Assembly: GCF_025857195.1 (NCBI RefSeq)
Contig: NZ_CP109787.1
Span: 3,041,501-3,105,500, forward strand
Direction of reading: 5' to 3'
DNA: 64,000 nucleotides
From: Leisingera thetidis
Lineage (GTDB): Bacteria; Pseudomonadota; Alphaproteobacteria; Rhodobacterales; Rhodobacteraceae
Position numbers and translations under genes: made by a program. The notes under the pieces were generated by a model. The model saw nothing but the letters and a program-made list of their open reading frames with translations, was not told the DNA's origin and did not search any database. Positions 2,090-18,501 of this stretch are shown here, in pieces (position 1 is the stretch's first letter; every line of letters begins with the position of its first letter).

Positions 2090-2569
2090 TCATCCCGCCT
2101 GCCGCCCGCCTTGCAGCCCAATCGAGCGCGAGCGGTGTTTCAATTTATGGCGCTCCGACGCTGATATCTTCGCAGCTTGCAGGCGGCGCAGGATATCAGA
2201 CGGGATCGCCGTCGCGTGCGGTTCCGGCTTCTGCTGAACGTGAAGTTCCATGAACTCACCTGCGGCTGCAATTTTGTCGCCGGCTAGCATTTGCATGTGC
2301 AGGTGAAAACGCTTGCCGTCGCAGTCCAGCAGCCGCGTTTCGACACGGACACGGTCCCCTTCCTTCACCTCGCGCAGGAAAAACTTGTGATCCTCAAGCA
2401 GATAGATCGTGCAGCCGGTCCGTTTGCGATAGTCGGCGTCGAACCCGACCTCATCCTGCATCGCATCAACGGCCAGGCTGAACACCAGCCCATAGTAGCT
2501 GTCCCGCATATGGCCGTTATAGTCGATCCATTCGGGCACAACCTTGGTCTCAAAGGCAAAGATCGTCAC
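2090..2569 (-). CDS. 4-hydroxybenzoyl-CoA thioesterase-like hot-dog protein
   Basis: This 159-residue protein begins with a beta strand and VVPEWIDYNGHMRDSYYG, the hot-dog-fold thioesterase signature in which the Asp before YNGHM is the catalytic candidate. A central segment (FFLREVKEGDRVRVETRLLD) and a later beta strand fit 4HBT/YbgC-type acyl-CoA thioesterases of about 140-160 residues. It is last in a three-gene minus-strand operon. Its ATG overlaps the stop of the amidohydrolase gene (ATGA at 2566-2569), which indicates translational coupling. The product is probably cytoplasmic and may hydrolyse a CoA thioester made in the pathway. The actual substrate is unknown. Confidence 0.75.
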   Translation of the reverse strand: MTIFAFETKVVPEWIDYNGHMRDSYYGLVFSLAVDAMQDEVGFDADYRKRTGCTIYLLEDHKFFLREVKEGDRVRVETRLLDCDGKRFHLHMQMLAGDKIAAAGEFMELHVQQKPEPHATAIPSDILRRLQAAKISASERHKLKHRSRSIGLQGGRQAG

Positions 2570-3453
2570 TGTGGTGCCTCCAGATTGTAGAACCGGGCCG
2601 CGGTGCCGCGAAACACGGCGCTGTGCATCTCTGCCGGGACCAGCCCGCGATAGGCCTGCGCCAGAGTGCGGTAATCAGAATACAGCTTGTCGACCGGGAA
2701 GTTCGACCCGAACATCACCCGATCGGCGCCGAACTGCGCCAGGCAGGTCTCGACAATCGGACGGATGCTGACCACTGTCCAATTGTGTTCGAACATGCCC
2801 AGACCTGACAGTTTGCAAGTGACATGGGGCAGACGCGAGAAGTGCTTCAGTTCCTTCCCCCAAGCCGTCAGCCCCTCGGCGGAGCGGTCATGGGGTGAGC
2901 CTGCATGACACAGCGCCACCGGGGTATCCGGGGCCTGCGCCAGAACCCTTGCGGTTTTCTCCATCAGTTCCGGGATCAGCTGCAGATCAAAGCTGAGCCC
3001 CCGCTGTCCCGCCTCTTGCAATCCTGCCAGAAACCGCGGGTCATCCAGCAGCGTATTGGTGCCGGTTTGCGCGTCTTCGCCCGGTGCGCGGCCGATGATC
3101 TGGCGCACACCGCGCACGGTTTGCAGGCTCTGGAACCGGTCGAGCTGTTCGGACAGGTCCGGCGCGGTCAGGTCACAAAACACCACTTGTGCCATCGGCC
3201 AGTCCGGATTCGCTTCTGCCACCGACTGCACCCAGCGCGCCTCTGCCAGACAGTCCTCGGCGCCCACCTGGATATGCACCGATGCAATGACACCTTCGAC
3301 TGCGGCCTCGGTGCGGAATTCTTCCAGCAGGTAATCCCGCTGGATCGGCGCCGGATCGCCAAAGAACCGTGTCTCCCCCTTGGCCATCAGCCAGGGATAG
3401 CGAACCGCCCCAAGATCCCACAGGTGGTGATGCGCGTCGATCCACCCGGTCAT
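2566..3453 (-). CDS. amidohydrolase-2 family (fuconolactonase/PDC-hydrolase-like) hydrolase
   Basis: This 295-residue TIM-barrel metal hydrolase starts with the metal-binding motif IDAHHHLWD (residues 5-13). It carries VHIQVGAED, CHAGSP and, near the C-terminus, RVMFGSNFPVDKL, where the conserved Asp equivalent supports catalysis. This is the COG3618 pattern seen in L-fucono-1,5-lactonase and 2-pyrone-4,6-dicarboxylate lactonase relatives. Such enzymes open lactones, so a lactone intermediate is plausible. The start at 3453 overlaps the stop of the upstream SnoaL gene as ATGA and was preferred over a longer in-frame start at 3801 that would run through that gene. It is the middle gene of a coupled operon divergent from the ABC transporter. 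Confidence 0.8.
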   Translation of the reverse strand: MTGWIDAHHHLWDLGAVRYPWLMAKGETRFFGDPAPIQRDYLLEEFRTEAAVEGVIASVHIQVGAEDCLAEARWVQSVAEANPDWPMAQVVFCDLTAPDLSEQLDRFQSLQTVRGVRQIIGRAPGEDAQTGTNTLLDDPRFLAGLQEAGQRGLSFDLQLIPELMEKTARVLAQAPDTPVALCHAGSPHDRSAEGLTAWGKELKHFSRLPHVTCKLSGLGMFEHNWTVVSIRPIVETCLAQFGADRVMFGSNFPVDKLYSDYRTLAQAYRGLVPAEMHSAVFRGTAARFYNLEAPQ

Positions 3454-4454
3454 GTGCGCGGCACCTCTGCCATCCGGGCCAGTATGTCGACGCCCTGCTG
3501 GTTCCAGAAATGCAGCAGATCGATGAAAATCCAGTTCTCGGCCAGCTTGTCCCCCTCGCGGCGGTAGATGTCGATCACCCGGAATTCGCCCGCCTTGCCG
3601 GTGGCGGGCATCCCCATGAAACCCCCGGTGGGGCGGGAGGTGAAATTCGGCCAGCCGAAGAATCCGCCATAGCTGCCCTCGGCCAGACGGCAGAGGTGAT
3701 TGGTCTTGGAGCGGCCTGTGAAACCCGCACGGAACGGCCCCGAGTGCTGCTTGGCATAGCGTTCGATCGTATAGGTGGCGCCGATCCCCGCAGGGCCCCA
3801 CCAGATCATGTCCTCGGCCCAGGTCCGGCGCAGCTCATCCTCCAGGCTCAGCCCGCTTTTCCACTGGCCGAGGTCGGAGATCATTGCGTTGATCGTTGCA
3901 AGGGTCTTTTCGCCCTCCTCCGGCGGCTGCGGGTCGAACATCAGCCCGTCATGGGTCATCGGTCCGGGCTGCACCAGATGCGCGGCGGTCTGCGGCGGGA
4001 ACGGCTGCAAGCCCGCCTGCATCATCAGATGCGGAATGTCGAAGTACATCGCCGTTTCGGTAACCTTGCCATCTTCAACCTTGTTGAACTCGCAATAGCG
4101 CAGGAATGCCATCTTGCCGGTCGGGGCGATCCCCAGCCAGGGCGCATCGAACAGCCCCATCAGATGCCCCATCGAGACCACCCAGACCGAAGCGAACCCG
4201 TCCATCTCGTTGGCGCCCGCCATAAAGATGTCCTCACGCCTCTGCATATTCTTCAGTGACCCGCGCAAGGGGGTCCAGAACACGTCAGCGACCGCTTCTG
4301 CGCCCTGCTGCTCATGGAACGGATGGTAGCCGCGCCAGATATGATTCGAGGCGTAGTACCGCGCAAGCACCTCGCCTGCTTGCCCTGCCTTCGACCTGTC
4401 CAAATCGGTGTAAAGGTTTCGGATTAATTGCTTTTCCGCTGAAAAGTCAGTCAT
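3450..4454 (-). CDS. two-domain SnoaL/NTF2-fold (ester-cyclase-like) protein
   Basis: This 334-residue protein has two SnoaL-like domains in tandem. The first half ends in FLRYCEFNKVEDGKVTETAM, and the second in FRVIDIYRREGDKLAENWIF followed by LHFWNQQGVDIL, the usual terminal strands of the fold. SnoaL proteins are small cone-shaped alpha+beta barrels that include polyketide cyclases, limonene-epoxide hydrolase relatives and isomerases. Which chemistry applies here is not known. Three paralogues lie in the divergent operon (9123, 10974, 13814). The start at 4454 places the gene just outside the first LacI-type operator. An in-frame ATG at 4505 would put the operator inside the coding region. 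Confidence 0.75.
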   Translation of the reverse strand: MTDFSAEKQLIRNLYTDLDRSKAGQAGEVLARYYASNHIWRGYHPFHEQQGAEAVADVFWTPLRGSLKNMQRREDIFMAGANEMDGFASVWVVSMGHLMGLFDAPWLGIAPTGKMAFLRYCEFNKVEDGKVTETAMYFDIPHLMMQAGLQPFPPQTAAHLVQPGPMTHDGLMFDPQPPEEGEKTLATINAMISDLGQWKSGLSLEDELRRTWAEDMIWWGPAGIGATYTIERYAKQHSGPFRAGFTGRSKTNHLCRLAEGSYGGFFGWPNFTSRPTGGFMGMPATGKAGEFRVIDIYRREGDKLAENWIFIDLLHFWNQQGVDILARMAEVPRT

Positions 4455-4467
4455 GAGAGGTTGCCCC

Positions 4468-4483
4468 TTGCATACGTGTGCAA
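4468..4483. promoter_or_regulatory. LacI-type operator 1
   Basis: TTGCATACGTGTGCAA is a 16-bp palindrome with one mismatched pair and a central CG, the form typical of LacI/GalR-family operators. It sits 14 bp upstream of the minus-strand SnoaL gene (start 4454). A second, near-identical palindrome lies 55 bp away. The LacI-family gene at 12798 in the same locus is the obvious candidate ligand-responsive repressor. Binding is inferred from symmetry and context. Confidence 0.7.
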
Positions 4484-4522: not shown

Positions 4523-4538
4523 TTGCATTCGTATGCAA
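4523..4538. promoter_or_regulatory. LacI-type operator 2
   Basis: TTGCATTCGTATGCAA is a 16-bp palindrome with a single mismatched pair, sharing TTGCAT..CGT.TGCAA with operator 1. It lies 33 bp before the transporter ATPase start at 4571. The centre-to-centre distance of 55 bp to operator 1 would allow cooperative binding or looping over the divergent promoters. A TATAAG-like hexamer at 4507-4512 lies between the two sites. Confidence 0.7.
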
Positions 4539-4570
4539 AACGGCCGGTCACAGCCGGCAGAGGGGAAGCC

Positions 4571-5623
4571 ATGGCCGAGATACAACTGCAGAATGTTGGC
4601 AAGCGCTGGGGGTCGTTCGTCGGCGTCGACAACTTCGACCTGACCATCGCCGACAAGGAGTTCCTGGTGCTGCTAGGGCCTTCGGGCTGTGGCAAGACCA
4701 CCACCATGCGGATGATCGCAGGGCTGGAGGAAGCCTCTGAGGGCGACATTCTGATCGACGGTCAGCGCGTCAACGACATGGAACCCAAGGACCGCGACGT
4801 GGCGATGGTATTCCAGTCCTACGCGCTCTACCCCAATATGAACGTCTACGAGAACATCCGTTTTCCGCTGAAGGTCCGCGGCATCGACCCCAAGACTCAT
4901 GATGAGAAGGTCCGCCGCGCCTCGGCGATGGTGGAACTGGACGACTTTTTGCACCGCAAGCCGGCCGAACTCTCCGGCGGCCAGCGCCAGCGCGTTGCTT
5001 TGGCCCGCGCCATTGTGCGCGAACCCAATGTCTTCCTGATGGATGAGCCGCTGTCAAACCTCGATGCCAAGCTCCGCGTCTCCACCCGCGCCCAGATCAA
5101 GAACCTCAGCCACGAGCTGGCTGTGACCACGATCTACGTGACCCACGACCAGATCGAGGCGATGACCCTGGCCGACCGCGTCGTGGTGATGAAAAAGGGC
5201 GTGGTTCAGCAGGTGGGCTCACCGACCGAAATCTACGACCGGCCCGCTAATACTTTTGTCGCCAGCTTCATCGGCAACCCGGCGATGAACCTGATGGAGG
5301 GCGAGATCCAGGGCGGCACCTTCCGGGCAAAGAACGTGGAAATCAACGGGCTGAACGCCTCGGACGGACCGCTCACACTGGGTTTCCGGGCCGAGGACGC
5401 CAGCATCGCGGCACCCGGCGAAGGCCAGATCAACGCGCCGATCTACACGATGGAACTGCTGGGCGACGCAACGATGATCTCGGTGCGCGTGGGCGGGGCT
5501 CTGGTTTCGGTAAAGGCGGACAAGAATTTCCGGGCTGAAATCGGCCAGACAGTGTCGATCTCCGTGCCGCAGGGCATCTGCCACCTGTTTGACGGTCAAA
5601 CCGGCGCGCGGCTCGGGGGCTGA
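4571..5623 (+). CDS. sugar-type ABC transporter ATP-binding protein (UgpC/MalK-like)
   Basis: This 350-residue ATPase shows Walker A GPSGCGKTT (residues 36-44), the Q-loop in VFQSYALYPNM, signature LSGGQRQRVALARA, Walker B VFLMDEPLSNLDAKLR, H-loop YVTHDQIEA, and a C-terminal TOBE/MalK-type regulatory region. It energises the CUT1-type importer encoded just downstream (binding protein 5714, permeases 7025 and 8067). The start at 4571 has AGGGGAAG upstream and begins MAEIQLQNVGKRWGSF, in the family position. An in-frame start at 4478 would span the operators. As first gene of the plus-strand operon it is probably controlled by the LacI-type operators immediately upstream. Confidence 0.92.
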   Translation: MAEIQLQNVGKRWGSFVGVDNFDLTIADKEFLVLLGPSGCGKTTTMRMIAGLEEASEGDILIDGQRVNDMEPKDRDVAMVFQSYALYPNMNVYENIRFPLKVRGIDPKTHDEKVRRASAMVELDDFLHRKPAELSGGQRQRVALARAIVREPNVFLMDEPLSNLDAKLRVSTRAQIKNLSHELAVTTIYVTHDQIEAMTLADRVVVMKKGVVQQVGSPTEIYDRPANTFVASFIGNPAMNLMEGEIQGGTFRAKNVEINGLNASDGPLTLGFRAEDASIAAPGEGQINAPIYTMELLGDATMISVRVGGALVSVKADKNFRAEIGQTVSISVPQGICHLFDGQTGARLGG

Positions 5624-5713
5624 GTGCCCCCGCCTGCCGGCGCTTCCGCCGCTGCGGTCCATCGAACGGGTCAAGCCGCCTGCATCCATTCCAGATAAAA
5701 CAGGGAGAATAAT

Positions 5714-6958
5714 ATGTTACTGAAACGACTTGCCGCAGCATCGCTGTTTACCGGGCTGATGGGCTCGGCAGCTTTCGCGGCCAATTGCGGCCCCGAGGGC
5801 CAGTCGATCCGCATCCTAGCCAGCGACTTCCCGGCAATCCACGCCGTGGTCGGTGCAGCTGAAGCCAATTGCGCAGGCTCGGCGGAGGAGTTTTCTGCCA
5901 ACCACACCACCGAAGCGCGCCAGATCATGAACGCGGCGCTGACGCCGAACCCGGCGGAATACACCTCGGTGATCCTCGCCAACGCCACGCTGACCCAGCT
6001 GATGAACGATGGGCTGGTCCGGCCGCTGAATGACCTGGTCGAGAAATACAAGGACAGCATCCCGCCGAATGTGCTGATCACCATCGACGGCAACGTGATG
6101 GCGGTTGCCTTCATGGCCAACTCGCAGCACCTGTTCTCGCGCAAGGATATCCTGCAGCAAGCGGGTGTTGACAGCATCCCCACATCCTATGAGGAAGTGC
6201 TGGAGGCCGCAGAGAAGATCCGCGCTGCGGGCATCATGGAACATCCCATCGCGATGAACCTGCAGACTGGCTGGAACGTAGGCGAAGTCTTCAACATGAT
6301 CTACCTCGGCCACGGCGGCGAGTTCTTCGCACCCGGCTCAGCCGAACCTTCGATCAACAATGAGCAGGGCATCGCCACGCTGGAAACCATGAAGGCACTT
6401 GCCGAATACGCCCACCCGGACCACCTGACCCATGCCTCCAACGAGACCCAGGGCCTGTGGGAATCCGGTCAGGCAGCGCTGGCCGTCATGTGGGGCTCGC
6501 GCGGTGCGCCGATCCTGGATGACGAAGGCTCCACCGAGGAAGTGACCTCTAACACCGTCCTGTCCGCGGCCCCCACCGTCGGCGGCGGCTCGATCCCGGC
6601 GGCCACCCTGTGGTGGGATGGCATCTCCATTGCCTCCAATGTCTCCGATGAAGAAGCTGAGGCAACCTTCGCCGCGCTGATCAGCGGCCTGACCCCCGAA
6701 ATGGTTGCGGAGAACAACGACGACGCGGTCTGGCTGCTGCCGGGTTTTGAACCCGGACCGGCAGCAGCGGGCGTGGCCGGAACCGTGCAGGGCGGGGCCC
6801 GGCCCTATCCGATGATCCCGCAGATCGGCCTGCTGCACGCAGCACTCGGCTCCGAGCTCACCGACTTCCTGAAGGGTGGTGAAAGTGCCGAGCAGGCGCT
6901 GTCGGATGTCGAGACCGCCTACCGGACCTCGGCCAAGGAAGCCGGCTTCCTCAAGTAA
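5714..6958 (+). CDS. ABC transporter periplasmic solute-binding protein (CUT1-type)
   Basis: This 414-residue protein has a clear signal peptide: KR, a hydrophobic core, and AFA before ANC at about residue 22. It is followed by a type-2 periplasmic binding fold of the family-1 extracellular solute-binding class. Aromatic-rich ligand segments such as NLQTGWNVG, VMWGSRGAP and TLWWDGISIASN are visible. It should capture the locus substrate for the permease pair downstream. The class suggests a carbohydrate, polyol or glycoside-like ligand, but the ligand is not predictable from sequence. An SD-like AGGGAGAAT precedes the ATG. A hairpin terminator follows the gene and may lower expression of the downstream permeases relative to this protein. 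Confidence 0.9.
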   Translation: MLLKRLAAASLFTGLMGSAAFAANCGPEGQSIRILASDFPAIHAVVGAAEANCAGSAEEFSANHTTEARQIMNAALTPNPAEYTSVILANATLTQLMNDGLVRPLNDLVEKYKDSIPPNVLITIDGNVMAVAFMANSQHLFSRKDILQQAGVDSIPTSYEEVLEAAEKIRAAGIMEHPIAMNLQTGWNVGEVFNMIYLGHGGEFFAPGSAEPSINNEQGIATLETMKALAEYAHPDHLTHASNETQGLWESGQAALAVMWGSRGAPILDDEGSTEEVTSNTVLSAAPTVGGGSIPAATLWWDGISIASNVSDEEAEATFAALISGLTPEMVAENNDDAVWLLPGFEPGPAAAGVAGTVQGGARPYPMIPQIGLLHAALGSELTDFLKGGESAEQALSDVETAYRTSAKEAGFLK

Positions 6959-6971
6959 ACCTCCCCGACTG

Positions 6972-6997
6972 GAGGGGGCTCCGGCCCCCTCTCTTTT
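6972..6997 (+). terminator. hairpin terminator/attenuator after the binding-protein gene
   Basis: GAGGGGGC (6972-6979), loop TCCG and GCCCCCTC (6984-6991) form a perfect 8-bp GC-rich stem, followed by TCTTTT. It sits between the binding-protein stop and the first permease. Such partial terminators are common in ABC operons and keep the binding protein in excess. Read-through to the permeases is assumed because no separate promoter is obvious. Confidence 0.75.
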
Positions 6998-7024
6998 CCC
7001 GGACTGAACACCGAGACCCACACC

Positions 7025-8056
7025 ATGAAGCACCGCACATTTTTCTGGTTCATCCTGCCGACTCTTTCCGCGATGATCCTCTTCATCGCGCTGCCCATCG
7101 TCTCGGTTTTCCTCCAGTCGCTGTTTGTCGAGCACGAGCAGGTTCTGGTGGTTTCCGAGAGCTGCGGCCCGTTCGGCTGCACGCCCACCACCACTGTTGA
7201 TACCGCGGCCACAGCCGCACTGCAGGAAGAGCAGCCCCTGGGCCGGTACAACGGGCTCAACACTTACATCAACCGCTCGCACCTGGCCTTCGTCGAGGTC
7301 GGCGAGGCCTGGAGCAGCACGGAAACTTTCGGCGCGTTCTGGAAACAGATCATCAATCTGCCCTTCTACCGCGCGCTAATTTTCACGCTGACTTACACGG
7401 CAGTGGTCACTCCGGTCGTTATCACGCTTGGCCTGGCAATTGCTGTGGGCGTCAACAACCTGCCCCGCATCCTCAAGGGCCCGTCGATCTTCATCTCGCT
7501 GCTGCCGTTCCTTGTCACACCGCTGGTTGGCTCCCTGATCCTGTTCTGGATGGTCGACAGCGACGGCGTCATCGGCGCCACCATCCAGCGGATTTTCAAC
7601 GATCCCTCGCTCAGCCTCAAGGCCTCCACCGCGCTGACCTGGACCATGCTGATTGTCTATGGCGTCTGGCACACCCTGCCGTTCAGCTTCATCACCTTTT
7701 ACGCAGGCCTCCAGACTGTGCCCGAGGACACCATGGAGGCGGCGATGATTGACGGCGCGTCGAAGTGGCAGCGCATGATCCATGTGGTCGTGCCGCATCT
7801 GGCACCGCTGATGTCCTTCGTGACGCTGATGCTTTTGATGGACAACTTCCGCGTCTTCGAGCCGATCGTCAGCTTCAAGGCCGAGGCCCACGCCACCTCG
7901 CTCAGCTGGATCATCTACAACGACCTGCGCGAAAGCGGCAATCCGCTCTACGGCTCGGCCGGGGCGACCTCGATGATGACCATCATCGGCGTGGTCATCC
8001 TGCTGACCCCGGTGCTGATCCGCACCTGGCGCGACTTTTCCCGCAAAGCACACTGA
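7025..8056 (+). CDS. sugar ABC transporter permease 1
   Basis: This 343-residue inner-membrane protein has an N-terminal hydrophobic segment (FFWFILPTLSAMILFIALPI) and then an unusually long hydrophilic stretch, about residues 35-115. That stretch includes two Cys (CGPFGC). A block of further transmembrane helices follows. The EAA loop that docks on the ATPase reads MEAAMIDGASKWQRMIHVVVP. The order and spacing fit MalF/UgpA-like subunits, whose extended first periplasmic loop contacts the binding protein. The Cys pair in the loop is not typical and could form a disulfide. Permease 2 starts 10 bp downstream. Confidence 0.9.
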   Translation: MKHRTFFWFILPTLSAMILFIALPIVSVFLQSLFVEHEQVLVVSESCGPFGCTPTTTVDTAATAALQEEQPLGRYNGLNTYINRSHLAFVEVGEAWSSTETFGAFWKQIINLPFYRALIFTLTYTAVVTPVVITLGLAIAVGVNNLPRILKGPSIFISLLPFLVTPLVGSLILFWMVDSDGVIGATIQRIFNDPSLSLKASTALTWTMLIVYGVWHTLPFSFITFYAGLQTVPEDTMEAAMIDGASKWQRMIHVVVPHLAPLMSFVTLMLLMDNFRVFEPIVSFKAEAHATSLSWIIYNDLRESGNPLYGSAGATSMMTIIGVVILLTPVLIRTWRDFSRKAH

Positions 8057-8066
8057 GGGCACGATC

Positions 8067-8987
8067 ATGGCAACCAATGCACAATCCTCCATCGCAGTCC
8101 CGGCAGTGAACCCGAAATCCCGCTCCCGCGTCCCTCTGCTCACAGTGGTTTCGCTGGCGCTCGTGGCGCTTTGGCTGATCATCGCTGCTTTCCCCTTCTT
8201 CTGGACCTTCTGGGGCAGCTTCAAGGTGCAGTCGGACTTCTTCTCCAAGACCGACTGGCAGAACGCCATCTACGGGGTCAACACGATCCAGCAGACCGGC
8301 AGCGCCTTCACGCTCGAAGGCTACCAGGGCGCCTGGGTGGACGAGGAATTCTGGCGCAACGTCATCAACTCCGGGATCGTGGTGTTTTTCACCGTGGTGA
8401 TCTCACTCACCTTCGGCACTCTGGGCGGCTACGCCCTCGCCCGCTCCGGCCGCCGCTATGCCTTCTGGCTCCTGATGGCCGCGCTAGTGTTCCGCGCCAT
8501 GCCGCATATCACCCTGGTTTCGGGCTACCTGCTGCCGTTCTTCGAGTGGAACATCTGGGGCATCCTGCCGACCACAATCATCGTGCTGGTGGCAATCAAC
8601 CAGCCTTTCACCCTGTGGATGCTGCACTCCTTCTTCCTCAACATCCCCAAGGACATGGACGAAAGTGCCATGGTCGACGGCTGCACCCGCTTCCAGGCCT
8701 TCCGCCACGTGATTATTCCGGTGATGTGGCCCGGCGTTATCACCACCGGCCTGTTCAGCTTCCTGCTCGCCTACAACGACTTCGCGGTGACCGCGATGCT
8801 GCTCAGCTCGGAGAACGAGACCATCATCCCCGCGATCAACAGTTTCCTCGGGACCACACAGGTCGAAGGCAAGGTGATGTACGCCGTCGCCGCCGTGGTC
8901 TCCGCCACCGCCCCGCTGTTCGTGTTGATCCTGTTCTTCCAGCGACAGATCGTCAGCGGCCTGACCGCCGGCGCGGTGAAAGGCTGA
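8067..8987 (+). CDS. sugar ABC transporter permease 2
   Basis: This 306-residue inner-membrane subunit of the MalG/UgpE type has an N-terminal helix around residues 20-45, a periplasmic loop, then five further hydrophobic segments. The EAA motif is MDESAMVDGCTRFQAFRHVIIP. It pairs with the permease encoded 10 bp upstream to form the channel of the importer. The cytoplasmic EAA loop binds the ATPase encoded at 4571. The final helix ends shortly before the stop. A 135-bp spacer to the next gene contains only a 32-codon open frame with no recognisable product. Confidence 0.9.
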   Translation: MATNAQSSIAVPAVNPKSRSRVPLLTVVSLALVALWLIIAAFPFFWTFWGSFKVQSDFFSKTDWQNAIYGVNTIQQTGSAFTLEGYQGAWVDEEFWRNVINSGIVVFFTVVISLTFGTLGGYALARSGRRYAFWLLMAALVFRAMPHITLVSGYLLPFFEWNIWGILPTTIIVLVAINQPFTLWMLHSFFLNIPKDMDESAMVDGCTRFQAFRHVIIPVMWPGVITTGLFSFLLAYNDFAVTAMLLSSENETIIPAINSFLGTTQVEGKVMYAVAAVVSATAPLFVLILFFQRQIVSGLTAGAVKG

Positions 8988-9653: not shown

Positions 9654-9663
9654 GGACCTGACC

Positions 9664-10977: not shown

Positions 10978-12029
10978 CCACCGATATTCACACCCGGAAC
11001 AAGGCGCTGATCGCCCCGATGCGGGACGCGATGCGCGACTTCACCGAAAAAGGCGTGCGCGCCGCGCTGGAGGAACTGATCGCGCCGGACGCGGTGGTGC
11101 ATATGTGCCACCCGTTCGGCGACCTGACCGGCCCCGCAGAACTCTATGAAGCCTGCTACGCCCCGTTGCTGAACGCCATGCCGGACCTGGAGCGCCGCGA
11201 CTGGATCGTCATGGGTGGCCGTACCGAGCACGGCGGCGACTGGATCGGCTGCGGCGGCCACTACTTTGGCACTTTCGTGAAGCCCTGGCTCGACATTCCG
11301 CCAACCGGCCATCTGACCCACATGCGCTACCACGAGTTCTACCGCTTTGAGGAAGGCCGCGTGGTGGAAATCCAGACCATTTGGGACATCCCCGAGGTGA
11401 TGATGCAGGCAAAGGCCTGGCCGATGGCGCCGTCGCTGGGCCTTGAATTCTGCATCCCTGGCCCGGCAACGCATGACGGCATCGTCCCCGGCCCCTGGGA
11501 CGAGGAGAAGTCGCAGGCCTCCTGCAGCCACATCGTCGACATGCTGACCCACTTGAAGAAGCACCCGAGCCAGGGCGGCCCGGAAGTGATGGAGATGCCG
11601 AAATTCTGGCATGAGCGGATGAACTGGTACGGCCCTGCCGGCATCGGCACCGGCCGCGGCATCGCAGGCTTCCGCAACTGGCACCAGATCCCGTTCCTGA
11701 ACGGCATGCCCGACCGCGGCCAGTATCTGGACGAGATCACCTATCACTTCTTCGGCGACGGTGAATACGCCGCGGTGACTGGCTGGCCGAACATGATCCA
11801 GACCGTCACCCACGACGGCTGGATGGGCATCGCCCCCTCGGGCCAGCGCATCACCATGCGAAGCGTCGATTTCTGGAGGCTGGAGAACGGCAAGATCCGG
11901 GAAAACTGGGTCACGGTGGACATTCTGGACGCCTACCGGCAGTTGGGCGTAGATGTCTTTGCCCGCCTGCGCGAGTTCAACAAGGCCCGCGTGGCTGGCG
12001 AAATCCCCTTCCCTGTCAGCGAGGTTTGA
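10974..12029 (+). CDS. two-domain SnoaL/NTF2-fold protein
   Basis: This 351-residue protein begins at an ATGA overlap with the HisD-like stop. The first SnoaL domain contains [30 protein letters not shown] and the second [34 protein letters not shown] and [15 protein letters not shown]. The motif [10 protein letters not shown] matches FDIPHLMMQA of the paralogue at 3450, so the two share ancestry and perhaps related substrates. Conserved Trp, His and Asp pairs ([13 protein letters not shown] here, DMIWWGPAGIG there) mark the start of the second domain. The function is not assigned beyond the fold. Confidence 0.75.
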
Positions 12030-12030
12030 C

Positions 12031-12798
12031 ATGCCCACCTTCCCCAGCACCCCCAGTTTCAGCCTAGAGGGCAAGCGCGCCCTGGTTGCCGGCGCGTCTT
12101 CCGGCATCGGCACGGCCTGTGCCGTGGCCCTGGCAGAACGGGGTGCTGAGGTCACTCTTGCAGCGCGCCGCACTGACGCGCTGCAGGACATCGCAGCGGA
12201 AATGACCGCCCGCGGCTGGAAAGCCAGGGTGCTGAAACTGGATGTCGCCGATGTTGCGGCAACGGCGGAGGCGGTGGCCGCAAACGGCCCCTTCGACATC
12301 CTGGTCAACTCGGCAGGCCTTGCCCGCCACGGCAAGGCCACCGACACCTCGACAGAGGATTTCGACGCGGTAATGCAAGTCAACGTCCGCGGCGCCTACT
12401 TTCTGACCCAAGCGGTAGCCAAGGGATTGCTGGCAGCCGGCCGCCCCGGCTCTCTCATCAACATCTCCAGCCAGATGGGCCACGTCGGCGGCCGCGAGCG
12501 CGCAGTCTACTGTGCCTCCAAATTCGCGGTCGAAGGCTTCACCAAGGCGATGGCGCTGGAGTTCGGCCCGGACAAGATCCGCGTCAACACGATCTGTCCG
12601 ACTTTTATCCTCACCGATCTGACCCGGCCGACCTTTGACGACCCGGAAAAACGGGCCTGGGTACTGGATAAAATCAAGCTCGGCCGCCCGGGAGAGATCG
12701 AAGACATCATGGGGGCCGCTGTCTACCTGGCCTCAGACGCGTCTGCCCTGGTGACCGGAACCGCGATGATGGTTGATGGAGGTTGGACGGCAGACTGA
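12031..12798 (+). CDS. SDR-family NAD(P)-dependent oxidoreductase
   Basis: This 255-residue classical short-chain dehydrogenase has the nucleotide motif GASSGIG (residues 21-27), NSAG (NNAG equivalent), catalytic Ser in INISSQMG, and YCASK as the YxxxK pair. The C-terminal ALVTGTAMMVDGGW is typical of FabG/gluconate-5-dehydrogenase-like members. AAR following the second strand (LAARR) suggests NADP(H). The start at 12031 lies 1 nt after the preceding stop, and an in-frame start at 11953 would overlap the SnoaL gene. It likely interconverts a hydroxyl and a keto group of the pathway intermediate. Confidence 0.88.
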   Translation: MPTFPSTPSFSLEGKRALVAGASSGIGTACAVALAERGAEVTLAARRTDALQDIAAEMTARGWKARVLKLDVADVAATAEAVAANGPFDILVNSAGLARHGKATDTSTEDFDAVMQVNVRGAYFLTQAVAKGLLAAGRPGSLINISSQMGHVGGRERAVYCASKFAVEGFTKAMALEFGPDKIRVNTICPTFILTDLTRPTFDDPEKRAWVLDKIKLGRPGEIEDIMGAAVYLASDASALVTGTAMMVDGGWTAD

Positions 12799-13817
12799 TG
12801 GGAGCAAGCAAGGTCACCTCAATGGACGTCGCCCGCCTGGCGGGTGTCAGCCAATCTGCGGTCAGCCGGGTGTTCACCCCTGGCGCGTCCGCCTCTAAGA
12901 AAACGATCGAGAAAGTCCGCAAAGCGGCCGAGGAGCTCGGCTACCGGCCGAACGTGCTCGCCCGCGCAATGGTGTCCGGAAAAAGCGGCATCATCGGGCT
13001 GGTCGTTGCCTATCTGAACAACCAGTATTACCCCGAAGCACTCGAAAAACTGACCAATGCCCTGCAGGACCGGGGCTACCACGTGCTGGTCTTCCTTGCG
13101 TCGCACGCTGCGGGCAACATCGACCGCGTGGTCGAGGAGATCCTGGATTTCCAGGTCGACGGCATCATCGCGGCCTCGGTTGCGCTCTCCTCCGACCTCT
13201 CCGCCCGCTGCCAGACAGCCGGCGTGCCGATGGTGCTGTTCAACCGCGCGCAGGACGACCAGTCGATGTCGGCCGTGACCTCCGACAATATCGCCGGCGG
13301 GCGCAAGGCCGCGGAATTTCTGCTGGCAGGCGGCCACGAGAAAATCGGCTATATCGCCGGTTGGGAGGGCGCCTCGACCCAGCGCGACCGGGAGGCCGGC
13401 TTTACCGCCGAACTGGCCGCCGCCGGCAAGACGCTGCATGCCCGCGAGGTCGGCAATTTCGTAACCGAAGAAGCCCAGGCCGCCACCCGCCGCATGTTTG
13501 CAAACGACCCGCCGGATGCTGTCTTTGTGGCCAATGACCACATGGCCATCGCCGTGATGGACACCCTGCGCTTCGAGCTCGGCCTCAGTGTGCCGGACGA
13601 CGTTTCCGTCATTGGCTACGACGATGTCACCGTTGCATCCTGGCCCACTTACAACCTCACAACCGTGCGGCAGCCTGCCAACCGTATGGTGGCGGAAACC
13701 GTCGATATTCTCCTCGCCAAGATCGAAGGCCCCGACGCCGGGCCGCGCCGGGTTGAGATCGACGGCCCTCTTATCGTTCGCGGCTCGGCCCGCATACCTG
13801 AAGGATGGAAGACATGA
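12798..13817 (+). CDS. LacI-family transcriptional regulator of the locus
   Basis: This 339-residue protein has an N-terminal LacI helix-turn-helix (VTSMDVARLAGVSQSAVSRVF, about residues 6-26) and the hinge region (ELGYRPNVLARAM). The type-1 periplasmic-binding-like effector domain carries GIIGLVVAYLNNQYYPE, VDGIIAASV, AVFVANDHMAIAVMD and SVIGYDDVTVASW. Its ATG overlaps the SDR stop (TGATG at 12796-12800). It probably represses both divergent operons through the palindromes at 4468 and 4523 until the imported compound or a metabolite binds. Being inside the operon it controls would give autoregulation. Confidence 0.9.
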   Translation: MGASKVTSMDVARLAGVSQSAVSRVFTPGASASKKTIEKVRKAAEELGYRPNVLARAMVSGKSGIIGLVVAYLNNQYYPEALEKLTNALQDRGYHVLVFLASHAAGNIDRVVEEILDFQVDGIIAASVALSSDLSARCQTAGVPMVLFNRAQDDQSMSAVTSDNIAGGRKAAEFLLAGGHEKIGYIAGWEGASTQRDREAGFTAELAAAGKTLHAREVGNFVTEEAQAATRRMFANDPPDAVFVANDHMAIAVMDTLRFELGLSVPDDVSVIGYDDVTVASWPTYNLTTVRQPANRMVAETVDILLAKIEGPDAGPRRVEIDGPLIVRGSARIPEGWKT

Positions 13818-14788
13818 AGGGATTTGACCCCAAATTCAAGGATTTACCCGACTACATCATTGGCATTACCAAGGAAATCTGGGAAGATCGCGGCATCGCC
13901 ACGCTGCATGATTACTACGCGCCCGATATCGTCGTGCGTTCGCCGGCTTCGGTTGTTGTCGGCAACCAGGGCGTGATCGCCGCCACCATGGCAACCCTGG
14001 CCGAATTCCCCGACCGCACCCTTCTGGGCGAGGACGTGATCTGGTCAGGTACGCCCGAGGAGGGCATGCTGTCCTCGCACCGGCTGCTCTCAACCGCGAC
14101 GCACCTGGGCGACGGGGTCTACGGCAAGGCAACCGGCAAGAAGCTCACCTACCGCATCCTGGCCGACTGTCACGCGATCAACAACCAGATCAACGATGAA
14201 TGGCTGATCCGCGACCAGGGCGCCATCGTGCGCCAGATGGGCTGGGACCCCAAGGAATACGCCCGCGATCTGATCGCGCGCGAGGGCGGCCCCGAGGCTT
14301 GCGTGCAGCCCTATACCCCCGCCAACGAGCAACCCGGCCCTTACAAAGGCAACGGCAACGACAATGAATGGGGCCAGAAATACGCCGATATCCTGACGCG
14401 GATCATGAATGCCGACATGCGCGCGATTGAATCCGAATACGACCGCGCAGTGCAGTCGGAATATCCCGGCGGCATCACCGGCCACAGCTGGGGTCCGGTG
14501 GACCGCTTCTGGATGGGGCTGCGCGCCTCCTTCCCGAACGTCGAGTTCAAGATCCACCACCAGATCGGCCGCGACGATCCAATGATGCCGCCCCGCGCTG
14601 CGTTGCGCTGGACGCTGCATGGCAAGCACGACGGCTGGGGCGTCTTCGGCAAACCGACCGGCGCCGAGGTCTTCGTGCTGGGCGCCAGCCACGCCGAATT
14701 CGGCCCCTGGGGACTGCGCCGCGAATACGCGCTGTTTGACGAAACCTCGGTCTGGAAACAGATCCTGCTGCAGACCGGCGATCTCTGA
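13814..14788 (+). CDS. two-domain SnoaL/NTF2-fold protein
   Basis: This 324-residue protein starts at an ATGA overlap with the LacI stop. GAAGGA about 9 nt upstream supports 13814 over the ATG at 13805. Domain one includes ITKEIWEDRGIATLHDYYAPDIVVRSP and ILADCHAINNQINDEWLIRDQGAIVRQMG. Domain two includes ALRWTLHGKHDGWGVFGKPTGAEVFVLGASHAEF. The pattern is more divergent than in the paralogues at 3450 and 10974. The role is unknown beyond membership in the SnoaL fold. Its position after the regulator indicates that it still belongs to the operon. Confidence 0.72.
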   Translation: MKGFDPKFKDLPDYIIGITKEIWEDRGIATLHDYYAPDIVVRSPASVVVGNQGVIAATMATLAEFPDRTLLGEDVIWSGTPEEGMLSSHRLLSTATHLGDGVYGKATGKKLTYRILADCHAINNQINDEWLIRDQGAIVRQMGWDPKEYARDLIAREGGPEACVQPYTPANEQPGPYKGNGNDNEWGQKYADILTRIMNADMRAIESEYDRAVQSEYPGGITGHSWGPVDRFWMGLRASFPNVEFKIHHQIGRDDPMMPPRAALRWTLHGKHDGWGVFGKPTGAEVFVLGASHAEFGPWGLRREYALFDETSVWKQILLQTGDL

Positions 14789-14944
14789 ATGCGGCCCGGT
14801 GCCTCTCCTCTGAACGCCAGTCAGGCGGCCCGGCGGTATCACGCCCACCGCGCCAGCCTGCGCGCACGGCGGCTGAACAACCACCCGCCCGGTTGCGGGC
14901 GCTGACTCAGCCGTTTCAAACCAGATTTCAAGAGGATACGAGAT

Positions 14945-15904
14945 ATGAGCACCATCCAAGAACGCATCGTCCGCTACGGCGAATTGAAACCCTGTAAGAC
15001 CGCCTTCATCGACGCCCACACCCCGGGCTCCGACCAGAAGGAAAACTTCACCATCATCGGCGGCGGCGTCAGTGAAAGCCCGGACCAGCATGTCCACATC
15101 ACCGACAAGATCGGCTTCAACATCGGCGCCGCGGGCCAGCCGCCGAAATGCCGCAACTCGCTGCACAGCCACACCACCGCCGAAGTGTTCTTTGTCGCCA
15201 AGGGCCGCTGGCGCTTCTTCTGGGGCCGCTACGGAACCGCGGGTGAGTTCATCGCCGAGGAAGGCGATATCTTCAACATCCCCACCGGCATCTTCCGCGG
15301 CTTTGAAAACGTCGGCCAGGACTATGGCATGATCATGTCGATCCTTGGCGGCGACGATGCCGGTGGCGGCGTCACCTGGGCGCCGCAAGTGATCCAGGAC
15401 GCGCAGGCCCACGGCCTGATGCTGGGCAACAATGGCGTGCTGTATGACAGCAAGAAGGGCCAGGAACTGCCGCACAACGTGCAACCGATGCCGGTGCTGA
15501 CCGAAGAGCAGATGAAGGCTTACCCCGAGGTCCCGGTCGAGGACGTCGTTGGCAAATACGTGGCCCGCTACTGGGACCTGATGGCGCTGGCGGCGGGCAA
15601 ACCGGCTGTGGTTATCGGCGAGAACGGCCTGATCAAGGACAAGCCGGGCTTTGAGGTCGATTTCCTGGCCCGCGGCTCTGCCGTAGCGGATCAGGTCAAG
15701 GCGGAAAAGCCGGTGGTTCTGATGCCCGCCAGCGGCCATTGGCGGACCACCATCAACGAGGTCGAGACCACCCTATCCAACGGCGACACCGCGCTGGTGC
15801 TGCCTGGCGAAAGCTACAGCGCCGAACCGTCGATGACCGGGAACGCGGGCCTCTACCGCATCACCGCAACCGACGATCCTGCCGGCGCCACCTGGCAGGG
15901 CTGA
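14945..15904 (+). CDS. two-cupin (gentisate-dioxygenase-like fold) protein
   Basis: This 319-residue bicupin has a metal-type N-terminal cupin: LHSHTTAEVFFVAKGRWRFF contains the H-x-H and downstream E and G of cupin motif 1, and GDIFNIPTGIFRGFEN forms motif 2. The C-terminal half (MPASGHWRTTINEV, NGDTALVLPGESY) is a degenerate second cupin with one His. Such proteins can be ring-cleaving dioxygenases, isomerases or sugar-acid epimerases. It follows a 156-bp gap without evident features and an AAGAGGA-like ribosome site. Together with the three downstream genes it may form a second transcription unit of the locus. Confidence 0.72.
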   Translation: MSTIQERIVRYGELKPCKTAFIDAHTPGSDQKENFTIIGGGVSESPDQHVHITDKIGFNIGAAGQPPKCRNSLHSHTTAEVFFVAKGRWRFFWGRYGTAGEFIAEEGDIFNIPTGIFRGFENVGQDYGMIMSILGGDDAGGGVTWAPQVIQDAQAHGLMLGNNGVLYDSKKGQELPHNVQPMPVLTEEQMKAYPEVPVEDVVGKYVARYWDLMALAAGKPAVVIGENGLIKDKPGFEVDFLARGSAVADQVKAEKPVVLMPASGHWRTTINEVETTLSNGDTALVLPGESYSAEPSMTGNAGLYRITATDDPAGATWQG

Positions 15905-15995
15905 TGACCGAAATTCCTCCTGTGCGGCGCCGTCCGCTGCACAGGGGGTGTACAGGGGGGGTACGCATGGCACCCCCTGAAATCAGGGAGATTGG

Positions 15996-17117
15996 ATGAT
16001 GGTCAAGACAACCCATGTAGGCTCGCTGCCCCGGACCCGGGAGGTGGTGGATTTCATCTTCGCCCGCGAGCGGAAGGAACCTTTTGACCAGGCGGAATTC
16101 GACGCCTGCATGTCGGCTGCCGTTTCTGAAACTGTCCGCAAACAGGTTGCCGCGGGGGTAGATATCGTCAGCGACGGCGAGACCTCCAAGATCTCCTATG
16201 CCACCTACGTCAAGGACCGCTACACCGGTTTTTCCGGCGACAGCCCGCGCAATGCGCCTGCCGATCTGAAGATGTTTCCGGGCTTCCTGCAACGGCTGGC
16301 AGACGACGGCGGCACGCCGCAATATGCCCGCCCCATGTGTACCGGCGAGGTGCGCTCCAAGGGCCAGGCTGAGCTGGAAAAGGACATCGCCAACCTCAAG
16401 ACTGCCATGGCAGAGCACGGCATGGAACACGGTTTCATGAACGCGGCGTCGCCCGGGGTCATCTCGCTGTTTTTGCGGAACGATTTCTATCCCACACGCG
16501 AGGCGTACCTGGCCGCGCTGGCCGATGCGATGAAGGCTGAATATGAGACCATCGTGGCCGCCGGGCTGGATCTGCAGCTCGACTGCCCCGACCTGGCGCT
16601 GTCGCGGCATATGCTGTTCAATGACTTGTCCGACGCGGAGTTCATCAAGATCGCAGACATGCATGTGGAGGCGTTGAACCACGCGCTGCAAAACGTGCCG
16701 CAGGAGCGCGTCCGGGTGCATATCTGCTGGGGCAACTACGAAGGCCCGCATTGCTGTGACATTCCGATGGACACAGTGTTCACCACTCTGATGAACACCA
16801 AATCGCGCTATGTTCTGTTTGAAACCTCCAATCCGCGCCACGCCCATGAATGGACCGTGTTCCACGACCGCAAGGCAGAGATCCCGGAGGACAAGGTGCT
16901 GGTGCCCGGCGTGGTAGATACTACCACCAATTTTGTAGAACACCCGGAACTGGTCGCGCAGCGCATTGAAAGATATACGGAAGTCGTCGGCTCTGACCGG
17001 GTGATCGCGGGCTCGGACTGCGGCTTTGGTACCTTTGCAGGCTTTGGCGCAGTGGACCCGGACATCGCCTATGCCAAGCTCGCCGCGCTGTCGGAGGGGG
17101 CACGGCGCGTCAAATGA
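15996..17117 (+). CDS. MetE C-terminal-domain-like zinc methyl/alkyl transferase homologue
   Basis: This 373-residue TIM-barrel protein is related to the C-terminal domain of cobalamin-independent methionine synthase. Zinc ligands of the family are visible: H and C in VHICWGNYEGPH, E in LFETSNPRH and C in AGSDCGFG. It begins TTHVGSLPRT and has SDGETSK, as in the short MetE-like branch that also contains epoxyalkane:coenzyme M transferase. These enzymes activate a thiol on zinc for alkylation. The reaction here could be demethylation or thiol addition to the pathway compound. AGGGAG lies upstream, and ATG codons at 15996 and 15999 are both possible. It overlaps the next gene by ATGA. Confidence 0.78.
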   Translation: MMVKTTHVGSLPRTREVVDFIFARERKEPFDQAEFDACMSAAVSETVRKQVAAGVDIVSDGETSKISYATYVKDRYTGFSGDSPRNAPADLKMFPGFLQRLADDGGTPQYARPMCTGEVRSKGQAELEKDIANLKTAMAEHGMEHGFMNAASPGVISLFLRNDFYPTREAYLAALADAMKAEYETIVAAGLDLQLDCPDLALSRHMLFNDLSDAEFIKIADMHVEALNHALQNVPQERVRVHICWGNYEGPHCCDIPMDTVFTTLMNTKSRYVLFETSNPRHAHEWTVFHDRKAEIPEDKVLVPGVVDTTTNFVEHPELVAQRIERYTEVVGSDRVIAGSDCGFGTFAGFGAVDPDIAYAKLAALSEGARRVK

Positions 17118-17809
17118 CACCGCTTGTCCTGATCCCCGGCATGATGTGCGATGCGCGGCTGTTCAACCCGCAGATTGCAGCGCTGTCCGGCAGCGTTCCG
17201 ATCGTAACCGCGCCAATCGGCGGTCATGGCACAATGGCGGCGCTGGCAGCGGAGCTGCTCTCTTACGCGCCGCCGCGCTTTGCTCTGGCGGGCCTGTCGA
17301 TGGGCGGCATCCTGGCGATGGAAATCCTCCGCCAGGCGCCAGAGCGGATCGCAGGCTTGGCGCTGATGGACACCAACCCGCTGGCCGAGCGGGATGAGGT
17401 CAAGGCCCGCCGCGCGCCGCAGATCGAAGCTGTCCGCCAAGGCGGGCTGCGCCGGGTAATGGCCGAGGAGATGAAGCCGAACTACTTGACGGAAGGGCCC
17501 AACCGGGCCGCGATCCTTGATCTGTGCATGGACATGGCCTTGGATCTGGGTCCGGACGTTTTCATCAATCAGTCCATAGCCTTGCGCGACCGCATCGACC
17601 AATGCGAAACGCTGCGCGCCTTCACCGGCCCGGCGCTGGTGCTGTGCGGTCGCGACGACATCACCTGCCCCGTCGCCCGGCATGAGCTGATGCACGAATT
17701 GATGCCGCAAAGCCGGCTGGAAATCATCGGAAACGCCGGCCATCTGCCGGTTCTGGAACAACCTGAACAAACCACGGCGGCACTTAACCGCTGGCTGGAG
17801 ACGATATGA
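17114..17809 (+). CDS. alpha/beta hydrolase
   Basis: This 231-residue protein has the alpha/beta-hydrolase fold: oxyanion region LVLIPGMMCDARLFNPQ, nucleophile elbow GLSMGG (Ser near residue 62), Asp in LCGRDDITCP and His in GNAGHLPVLEQPE. Substrates of the family include esters, lactones and C-C bonds in ring-cleavage products. It is embedded between the MetE-like and RraA-like genes with 4-bp overlaps on both sides, so it is translated with them. The exact bond cleaved is unknown. Confidence 0.85.
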   Translation: MTPLVLIPGMMCDARLFNPQIAALSGSVPIVTAPIGGHGTMAALAAELLSYAPPRFALAGLSMGGILAMEILRQAPERIAGLALMDTNPLAERDEVKARRAPQIEAVRQGGLRRVMAEEMKPNYLTEGPNRAAILDLCMDMALDLGPDVFINQSIALRDRIDQCETLRAFTGPALVLCGRDDITCPVARHELMHELMPQSRLEIIGNAGHLPVLEQPEQTTAALNRWLETI

Positions 17810-18501
17810 AACCATCGCTGCTAAACCTGCTGAATAAGGTCGACACGCCCACCGTCTGCAACGCCATCGAAGTGGCTGAGGGAAAGCGCGGTTTCAACGC
17901 CTTCACCCGCGGCACCATGCTGTGTTCGGACCCGGATGCCGGCGCCATGGTGGGCTATGCCCGCACCGCCAAGATTGCCGCGGTGAACCCGCCGGAAGAA
18001 CCGCCCGAAGTGATCCGCAAGCGCCGCATGGACTACTACCGGCACATGGCTCTCGGCACCGGGCCTTCGATCACCGTGGTCGAGGATCTGGACTTCCCCC
18101 ATTGCATCGGCGCCTACTGGGGCGAGATCAACACCACCGTGCATAAAGGCTTCGGCATCAACGGCGCGCTGACCAACGGCGTGATGCGGGATCTGGGCGA
18201 TCTGCCCGAGGGCTTCCCGGTTGTTGCTGGCTCCATTGGCCCCAGCCACGGGTTCGTACACGTCAAGGAAGTCGGAACACCCGTCAACATCTTCGGCCTG
18301 GAAATCAATGACGGCGATCTGGTGCATGCGGACCGTCACGGCGCACTGGTGATCCCCCCAGAGGTGTTGGGTGATCTCGAACAGGCCATCCTCAAACTGC
18401 TCGAAACAGAGAAACTGATCCTGGAGCCTGCGCGCAAGCCCGGGTTCGACTTCGACGCATTCGAGGAAGCATGGCAAGCGTTTGAAGCGGCCAGGACTTA
18501 G
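17806..18501 (+). CDS. RraA-family protein (HMG/CHA aldolase-like or regulator-like fold)
   Basis: This 231-residue protein of the RraA/dimethylmenaquinone-methyltransferase-like fold shows DTPTVCNAI near the start, IGAYWGEINTTVHKGFGINGALTNGVMRD, and VNIFGLEINDGDLVHADRHGALVIP. The G-x-x-T-N-G-x-x-R-D segment corresponds to the Mg-pyruvate site of 4-hydroxy-4-methyl-2-oxoglutarate aldolases, and the Arg-Asp pair is intact. In a catabolic operon an aldolase or oxaloacetate-decarboxylase role is more likely than RNase E inhibition. It is the last gene. The 243 bp after it hold only non-coding sequence that may be a decayed IS end. Confidence 0.82.
   Translation: MKPSLLNLLNKVDTPTVCNAIEVAEGKRGFNAFTRGTMLCSDPDAGAMVGYARTAKIAAVNPPEEPPEVIRKRRMDYYRHMALGTGPSITVVEDLDFPHCIGAYWGEINTTVHKGFGINGALTNGVMRDLGDLPEGFPVVAGSIGPSHGFVHVKEVGTPVNIFGLEINDGDLVHADRHGALVIPPEVLGDLEQAILKLLETEKLILEPARKPGFDFDAFEEAWQAFEAART

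Follow-up and report, generated by a model that had tools for sequence, protein, structure and literature searches.

What compound is taken up and degraded by a gene cluster that joins a sugar-type importer to four SnoaL-fold proteins, a paralogue of histidinol dehydrogenase (HisD) and a MetE-like zinc protein? The question is raised by a locus of Leisingera thetidis at positions 2090 to 18501 of a 64,000-nucleotide stretch of contig NZ_CP109787.1, which was analyzed as a whole and is called the window below. The reading we favor, with a probability of roughly 0.6, is that LacI represses a catabolic regulon dedicated to a single small compound, polyhydroxylated and probably O- or N-methylated, which would be broken down non-phosphorylatively.

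The first 18.5 kb of the window carry 17 genes in two divergent operons, all of them intact open reading frames. The minus-strand operon contains SnoA, an amidohydrolase (AMH) and a thioesterase (TE), with overlapping gene ends. The plus-strand operon (4571..18501) opens with a complete CUT1 importer set, composed of a UgpC/MalK-type ATP-binding subunit (ABCa, 4571..5623; NF008653, 449.7 bits against a cut-off of 432), a family-1 solute-binding protein (SBP, 5714..6958) and two permeases (P1, 7025..8056; P2, 8067..8987). It continues with SnoB, the HisD paralogue, SnoC, a short-chain dehydrogenase (SDR, 12031..12798), a LacI-family regulator (12798..13817), SnoD, a bicupin (CUP), the MetE-like protein (MetE), an alpha/beta hydrolase (ABH) and an RraA-family protein. 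These genes mostly overlap or are closely spaced, with the widest gaps between P2 and SnoB (about 180 bp) and between SnoD and CUP (about 160 bp). Pfam and NCBIfam profiles were used for domain assignment and recover 4HBT_2, Amidohydro_2, SnoaL (in four proteins), ABC_tran, SBP_bac_1, BPD_transp_1 (twice), Histidinol_dh, SDR, LacI, Cupin_2, Meth_synt_2, Abhydrolase and RraA-like domains. A preliminary description had proposed two divergent operons of about 16 kb with this gene set and sugar-type uptake; each named gene is borne out as an intact reading frame with an agreeing Pfam domain, and all importer components are present. Established here are the genes present, their conservation and co-occurrence, the operator sites, the residues of the active sites and the replacements between lineages.

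Conservation, co-occurrence and control of the cluster

Related loci were retrieved by scanning one genome per species with a SnoC profile, which gave at least 594 pattern matches and at least 554 confirmed ones, and the best 80 loci were analyzed. Presence was called by BLAST of the 17 proteins against the open reading frames of each locus (E ≤1e-8, 50% coverage, best hit), and the counts include some loci cut by contig ends or by the 10-kb flank. SnoC, the profile query and hallmark of the system, is found in all 80 loci, followed by P1, P2 and SBP (73 each), SnoD (65), ABCa (60), LacI (54), CUP (53), SnoA and SDR (52 each), SnoB and HisD (51 each), ABH (44), RraA (42) and MetE (40). AMH and TE were seen in 29 and four of the 80 loci, respectively, some of the 80 being truncated by contig ends, and both are thus peripheral to a core cluster that extends from SnoA (3450) to RraA (18501). 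Thioesterase and amidohydrolase had been presented as members of the system; the genes are present, and a core role for them is not supported. The HisD-bearing loci (51) nearly always encode LacI (50) and always encode the cupin and SnoD. SnoC, HisD, SnoD, CUP, SDR and LacI are jointly present at ≥35% identity in 48 of the 80 loci. The gene order of the window is largely kept across genera, with rearrangements in two Halomonas loci and a few others.

Within the family, 132 of 394 genomes carry SnoC (about a third; E ≤1e-80; the window's genome counted). A sample of 40 SnoC-positive and 40 SnoC-negative genomes, the first by handle number, revealed HisD (E ≤1e-180) in 40 and nine genomes, respectively (Fisher P 4e-14), and CUP (E ≤1e-60) in 39 and four (Fisher P 9e-17), both P values being uncorrected for kinship. 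SnoC and HisD lie within 15 kb on the same contig in 36 of the 40 SnoC-positive genomes. Both the largely shared order across genera and the correlated presence within the family show that the gene arrangement is not due to chance. A lack of neighborhood co-occurrence had been named in advance as a refuting outcome, and the genes do co-occur elsewhere.

The 29 loci lacking HisD include some full clusters that were cut and many loci of a short form, in which a LysR gene stands divergent from the importer, with SnoC (sometimes two copies) and often SnoD. Among 16 genomes with mostly short or partial loci, including L022 (SnoC only) and L008 (a rearranged Halomonas cluster), 15 encode HisD (E ≤1e-150), the exception being a SAR116 assembly. 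Eight of ten HisD neighborhoods from such genomes (L197-L201, L204-L206) hold much of the full set. The short form is thus mostly a satellite of the full pathway. The system is found in full or in part in SAR116 genomes, Halomonas and Vibrio (importer and SnoaL genes), and in divergent form in a haloarchaeon. Most of the cluster is located on the mobilizable plasmid pOA238_160 of Octadecabacter arcticus (L217), with insertion sequence elements around and within it, and further SnoC copies are found on plasmids of Ruegeria, Tritonibacter, Paracoccus and Marinovum. Two kinds of SBP, 40-58% or 66-99% identical, occur in related loci whose clusters are otherwise alike, which would suit the import of different congeners. 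A gene resembling S-adenosylmethionine-dependent methyltransferases follows the CUP position in L046 (14974-15597) and in 17 other loci of the 80, mainly in Ruegeria.

The divergent promoter contains two predicted LacI-type operators, TTGCATACGTGTGCAA (4468..4483) and TTGCATTCGTATGCAA (4523..4538), both palindromes matching the strict pattern TTGCAnnCGnnTGCAA. The 5.47-Mb genome holds exactly two sites of the strict pattern, both at this promoter, and none of the reversed-pattern control. The pattern nTGCAn6TGCAn was recovered in 40 of 45 comparable divergent promoters, and these regions contain 78 of the 118 occurrences within 1.53 Mb of loci; the remaining five promoters had been truncated on excision, and strict sites adjoin the ends of the excised pieces. 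For 82 of the 84 strict sites in the 80 loci, a gene start is no more than about 300 bases away, namely that of SnoA or ABCa for 81 sites and that of HisD for one (in Halomonas). The other two, both in L027, stand 1.1-1.2 kb ahead of SBP, in a place without an assigned ABCa start. A loose scan of the window allowing three mismatches gave five hits against 6.1 expected by chance and was uninformative; the exact genome-wide pattern is decisive. Because the strict pattern occurs at this promoter pair and nowhere else in the genome, a single-locus LacI regulon is the natural reading, with the repressor predicted to bind both operators. LacI control, as put forward in the preliminary description, thus gains a predicted pair of operators, and their confinement to one locus makes induction tests simple.

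Active-site residues of the encoded enzymes

The HisD paralogue (9664..10977) is a third type beside HpsN and HisD, because its substrate motif differs from both while the catalytic residues stay. In the accessible text of PMC11382572, HpsN is defined by the motif G-R-Y-A/S-H, which ends in the sulfonate-contacting His126, and HisD by G-S-A-P-L. Aligned proteins close to the paralogue have neither, with GKFPM in 50 of 53 and GGYPM in three, and the place of His126 is taken by Met. Among 28 distant homologues the motif reads GKYPL (15), GKFPM (8), GRYPI (3), GKFPI (1) or GRYSH (1). The catalytic and zinc-ligand letters EH, QAEH, DK and H, whose roles were assigned by comparison with the accessible part of PMC11382572, are kept in all 53 close and all 28 distant proteins. 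The closest solved relatives are HpsN proteins (E 1e-113), and the protein scores 427.6 bits against TIGR00069 (hisD, cut-off 243.8), yet lacks the GSAPL motif. The earlier label HpsN-like is misleading, as the substrate motif of HpsN is absent.

The four SnoaL proteins carry seven SnoaL domains, three of them (SnoA, 3450..4454; SnoC, 10974..12029; SnoD, 13805..14788) being two-domain proteins and SnoB (9171..9653; an earlier ATG is possible at 9123) having a single domain. The conserved aspartate is a functional residue of SnoaL proteins. The PF07366 or PF12680 domains present here retain it in 52 of 52 SnoB proteins, in both domains of all 67 SnoD proteins (with a few Asn in distant SnoD) and in SnoA in 47 of 47 for one domain and 45 of 47 for the other (two gaps). 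D138 and D316 of SnoC are invariant across 20 sequences. The structure model of SnoC is of low confidence (mean pLDDT, the predicted local distance difference test, 65.7), and the match of the N-terminal domain alone was used. The two-domain family of SnoC has 4944 homologues in public sequence at E ≤0.001. A precedent for dehydration and deformylation in this superfamily is set by two catabolic lyases with the NTF2 fold, LdpA and PcfL, according to the available portion of PMC12997858.

MetE methionine synthases bind zinc through His, Cys, Glu and Cys. The single-domain MetE-like protein (15996..17117) retains a matching H-x-C, Glu, Cys pattern (HIC, E, C in 41 of 41 close proteins); it falls far short of the methionine synthase cut-offs (best NF003317, 96.9 bits, cut-off 406). 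In the D-X20-R-D pattern of the HMG/CHA aldolase/RraA family, the first residue is Asp. The RraA-family protein (17806..18501) shows Glu there in 42 of 42 close proteins, which is a conservative change, and keeps Arg-Asp in all 42 close and three of three distant proteins. The accessible sections of PMC5065237 state that the Arg and Asp serve in pyruvate enolate and metal binding, and that most homologues, having one or the other of two motifs of this kind, probably act as pyruvate aldolases. Assignment as the LigK/PcmE CHA aldolase was discarded (TIGR02798, 26.2 bits against 304.5).

The fold of the bicupin (CUP, 14945..15904) is closest to gentisate/salicylate dioxygenase, and a sequence search of the PDB returned no convincing relative (best E 0.09). 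Bicupins of this kind have a third metal-binding His in cupin motif 2. CUP retains HxH and Glu, but the third His is replaced by Arg in all 54 of the 54 close proteins. ABH (17114..17809) is PcaD/BioH-like and keeps the nucleophile motif GLSMG in 45 of 45 proteins; it was not accepted as the 3-oxoadipate enol-lactonase PcaD (TIGR02427, 94 bits against 255.85). AMH (2566..3453) is fuconolactonase-like with HHH and SNFPVD motifs retained, and it was rejected as an L-fucono-1,5-lactonase equivalog (NF052480, 120.3 bits against 400). Together with its apparent absence from 51 of the 80 loci, this leaves the previously suggested lactonase role weak. TE (2090..2569), a 4HBT_2 hot-dog thioesterase, resembles the C-terminal part of carnitine 3-dehydrogenase.

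Substrate class and rival explanations

The reactions, all of them, and their sequence are inferred from these observations, as are the binding of the operators and the class of substrate. The CUT1 importer would take up the substrate, which would be degraded without phosphorylation or coenzyme A activation. The HisD paralogue would oxidize a primary alcohol that adjoins a carbinol (CH(OH)-CH2OH) to a 2-hydroxy acid in a four-electron step, and the SDR may act on a hydroxyl of the ring or chain. Cofactor-free acid-base steps (dehydration, retro-aldol cleavage or hydrolysis) would fall to the SnoaL proteins, with the MetE-like zinc protein accepting a methyl group. CUP and ABH, and AMH where present, would open and hydrolyze the carbon skeleton, and the RraA-type class II aldolase would liberate pyruvate. 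Taken together, the observations point to a non-phosphorylative route that oxidizes CH2OH and closes with a pyruvate aldolase, and breakdown to pyruvate is very likely.

The replacements are found in distant loci of the window's class and phylum and on a Novosphingobium plasmid, where the set is partly re-formed at about 25-85% identity and transporters differ (SSS, MFS, TRAP or TonB, some named by reading). Loci of the phylum outside the window's class and the plasmid have an HpaI-type aldolase beside HisD, SDR, cupin, hydrolase and LacI, and in several of the distant loci such an aldolase occurs where RraA was not seen. In Halomonas smyrnensis (L205) both aldolases are present, and a TAXI-TRAP importer (by reading), L-2-hydroxyglutarate oxidase (585 bits, over the cut-off), Ldh2-family and D-2-hydroxyacid dehydrogenases and the HpaI-type aldolase lie upstream of the cluster. 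A 29-kb stretch of a Halobellus limi plasmid (L211) encodes four two-domain SnoaL proteins (37-42% identical to SnoC), a single-domain SnoaL-like protein, a MetE homologue (41%), an ABC importer, an HpaI-type aldolase and an extradiol-dioxygenase-like VOC protein, as well as an aldehyde dehydrogenase and a 3-hydroxyisobutyrate-dehydrogenase-like protein, all profile scores quoted for it being below equivalog cut-offs. A six-frame search of this stretch did not find HisD. The two dehydrogenases are read as a replacement of HisD and the aldolase as a replacement of RraA.

The methyl group is suggested by gene context. In Novosphingobium pentaromativorans US6-1, homologues of MetE (52%) and ABH (34%) lie in a cluster with syringate O-demethylase (849.9 bits, above the cut-off), metF, purU and ligAB. 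The Halobellus stretch holds a DesA/LigM-like O-demethylase (470 bits, below the cut-off of 800), and in Vibrio pelagius homologues of SnoA, SnoC and SnoD with an importer precede sarcosine oxidase and purU genes. The MetE-like gene and the syringate O-demethylase beside its homologue point to a methylated substrate, as neighbors rather than as proof. MttB-family genes near SnoaL loci (L201:2120-3667, L015, L022 and L030) are possibly a further hint of methylated substrates.

Several points weigh against a methylated, polyhydroxylated substrate served by one dedicated pathway. The functions proposed for the cluster genes come from sequence comparison, and the substrate class is a prediction. 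Close HisD relatives occur without SnoaL genes within 8-12 kb on R. johnstonii pRL8 and on a Sulfitobacter plasmid, the latter with consecutive LacI, TAXI-TRAP importer, HpaI-type aldolase, HisD and SDR genes, so HisD alone is no marker of the pathway. Nine of the 40 SnoC-negative genomes have HisD and four have the cupin, and one of the 28 distant HisD homologues carries the HpsN motif GRYSH. Among the 51 HisD-bearing loci, some of them cut, MetE is missing from 13, RraA from 11 and AMH from 22. LysR-linked satellites exist with the importer, SnoC and SnoD only, and two of the ten HisD neighborhoods mentioned above are sparse (L202 with HisD, LacI and SnoD; L203 with HisD and CUP). The HpaI identity was assigned by reading and BLAST outside Halobellus, Novosphingobium and Sulfitobacter, and the one aldolase of this type scored by profile, in Halobellus, falls below its cut-off. 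No CUP, SDR, RraA, ABH or AMH match was found in the six-frame search of the Halobellus stretch.

The candidates weighed are a methylated polyhydroxylated carbocycle or similar compound, an ordinary sugar or sugar acid, an arylglycerol and, least of all, a sulfonate. The substrate might instead be an ordinary sugar, its alcohol or its acid, degraded by a route like those of Weimberg or De Ley-Doudoroff (dehydrogenase, lactonase, dehydratase, aldolase). The SnoaL proteins would then be sugar-acid dehydratases of a new kind, and MetE would do no more than recycle methyl groups; this reading is possible but rather unlikely. The CUT1 importer, the LacI regulator, the fuconolactonase-like AMH and the RraA and HpaI aldolases all suit such a route, and non-phosphorylative sugar acid pathways can end in HpaI-family aldolases. 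For the SDR, the top-scoring models are those of sugar or sugar-acid dehydrogenases, none of which reaches its cut-off; a related HisD stands beside SMP-30-, Gfo/Idh- and sugar-isomerase-like genes in L178 (judged by eye), and that of Halomonas L205 beside two 2-hydroxyacid-dehydrogenase families and L-2-hydroxyglutarate oxidase. However, the 17 genes include no IlvD/Edd, enolase or SMP-30 domain, AMH was not found in most loci, and to our knowledge known sugar routes need no four SnoaL proteins, bicupin, PcaD-like hydrolase or MetE. A glycoside, as previously suggested, finds no glycoside hydrolase among the 17 genes by Pfam.

A methoxylated arylglycerol or lignin-type dimer, with SnoaL proteins acting like LdpA and PcfL and HisD oxidizing the gamma-CH2OH, appears very unlikely. 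Aromatics are not usually served by a sugar-type importer and LacI, PF02900 (LigB-type dioxygenase) is without a match in the window's genome, no LigM there scores above the cut-off, and SAR116 genomes hold part or all of the system. The missing PF02900 match led us to reject a gallate exit via LigAB in this organism, against which the lack of a LigM above the cut-off speaks as well. In favor are the homologues of MetE and ABH inside the syringate/protocatechuate cluster, the dioxygenase-like bicupin fold and the role of NTF2-fold lyases in lignin-dimer pathways (PMC12997858, available portion). Hardly credible is a locus for a sulfonated compound with HisD as the dehydrogenase of 2,3-dihydroxypropane-1-sulfonate (DHPS). 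HpsN is the closest solved relative and the SDR beside HisD recalls HpsO, but GRY[AS]H is replaced by GKFPM or GGYPM, Met stands at the His126 place and no sulfonate-releasing enzyme was recognized among the 17 genes by Pfam or NCBIfam. DHPS catabolism was rejected on the missing HpsN motif.

The boldest specific form of the methylated-compound reading, a doubtful yet testable proposal, is a pathway for UV sunscreens of the mycosporine/gadusol type, which are O-methylated polyhydroxylated cyclohexenones. The chemical structures of mycosporines and gadusols, including 4-deoxygadusol, are used here as general background. HisD would oxidize the CH2OH that the ring carries next to its tertiary alcohol, the SnoaL proteins would remove substituents, dehydrate and aromatize the ring, the MetE-like protein would take the methoxyl methyl, the bicupin would cleave the ring and the aldolase would give pyruvate. 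Different SBPs in otherwise equal clusters would serve different congeners. The proposal fits the methoxyl and aromatic neighbors of relatives and the habitats of carriers, which we take to be the surface ocean, corals and shellfish. Bacteria form 4-deoxygadusol from shinorine and porphyra-334, as the accessible text of PMC3083659 reports. Among the open-licence PMC full-text matches listed, with supplements and subscription papers outside the scope, there was no matching pathway for mycosporine catabolism and no described pathway with this gene combination, the latter in agreement with the preliminary description. The earlier view of a co-regulated, probably catabolic unit stands; its wording as HpsN-like, lactonase and glycoside does not. 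The operators, satellite loci, swaps of aldolase and dehydrogenase and the methyl and O-demethylation context go beyond it, and the last of these narrows the substrate.

Neighboring genes and relation to known systems

Next to the cluster, at 18745-23941, lie genes for a GbdR-like AraC regulator, for a GcvT-fusion protein that by reading belongs with the dimethylglycine/sarcosine dehydrogenases, and for an MttB-family protein. In Ruegeria conchae (L235), a counterpart of this region (85% identity) is followed by a satellite SnoaL locus on its other side. The dehydrogenase and MttB genes (19759-23941) were rejected as members of the system, with relatives near five and three of the 80 loci and 24 matches of the GcvT-like type in the window's genome. 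Farther along, the dimethylsulfoniopropionate lyase DddP (803.5 bits, cut-off 600) adjoins a BCCT transporter at 33043-36188. At the window's edge (61628-63454), a 3-oxoadipate:acetyl-CoA acetyltransferase (493 bits, cut-off 350) lies by an intradiol ring-cleavage dioxygenase-like gene, and the pair is possibly an aromatic exit pathway.

The cluster is widespread among marine bacteria and combines its own repressor with the predicted import of a sugar-like, probably methylated compound. Naming the substrate would give a function to orphan families, namely the two-domain SnoaL proteins, the third HisD subfamily, the MetE-like subfamily and the bicupin. The labels histidinol dehydrogenase, methionine synthase and ester cyclase may be wrong in such clusters.

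Compared to known systems, the HisD paralogue shares with HpsN (R-DHPS 3-dehydrogenase) and HisD (histidinol dehydrogenase) the family, the zinc/NAD active-site residues and a presumed four-electron alcohol oxidation, and differs in its GKFPM motif and gene context. The SnoaL proteins are tandem two-domain proteins in a catabolic operon, unlike the SnoaL/SnoaL2/AknH polyketide cyclases and hydroxylases. LdpA and PcfL are, in the sources as available, likewise enzymes of the NTF2/SnoaL superfamily working in catabolism, but act on lignin dimers and are likened by superfamily rather than by sequence. Non-phosphorylative sugar acid pathways have a similar logic of dehydrogenase, hydrolase and pyruvate aldolase under LacI with CUT1 import, whereas the locus here lacks a classical dehydratase and has HisD-type oxidation, four SnoaL proteins, a bicupin and MetE. 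The sphingomonad cluster for syringate/vanillate O-demethylation and protocatechuate 4,5-cleavage (DesA, MetF, PurU, LigAB) resembles the locus in its MetE homologue and PcaD-like hydrolase, and 4,5-cleavage pathways, as far as the accessible source describes them, also end in an aldolase of the RraA fold family. The genome of L. thetidis differs in having no LigB-family match and no LigM above the cut-off, and the locus here has a sugar importer, LacI, HisD and SnoaL proteins.

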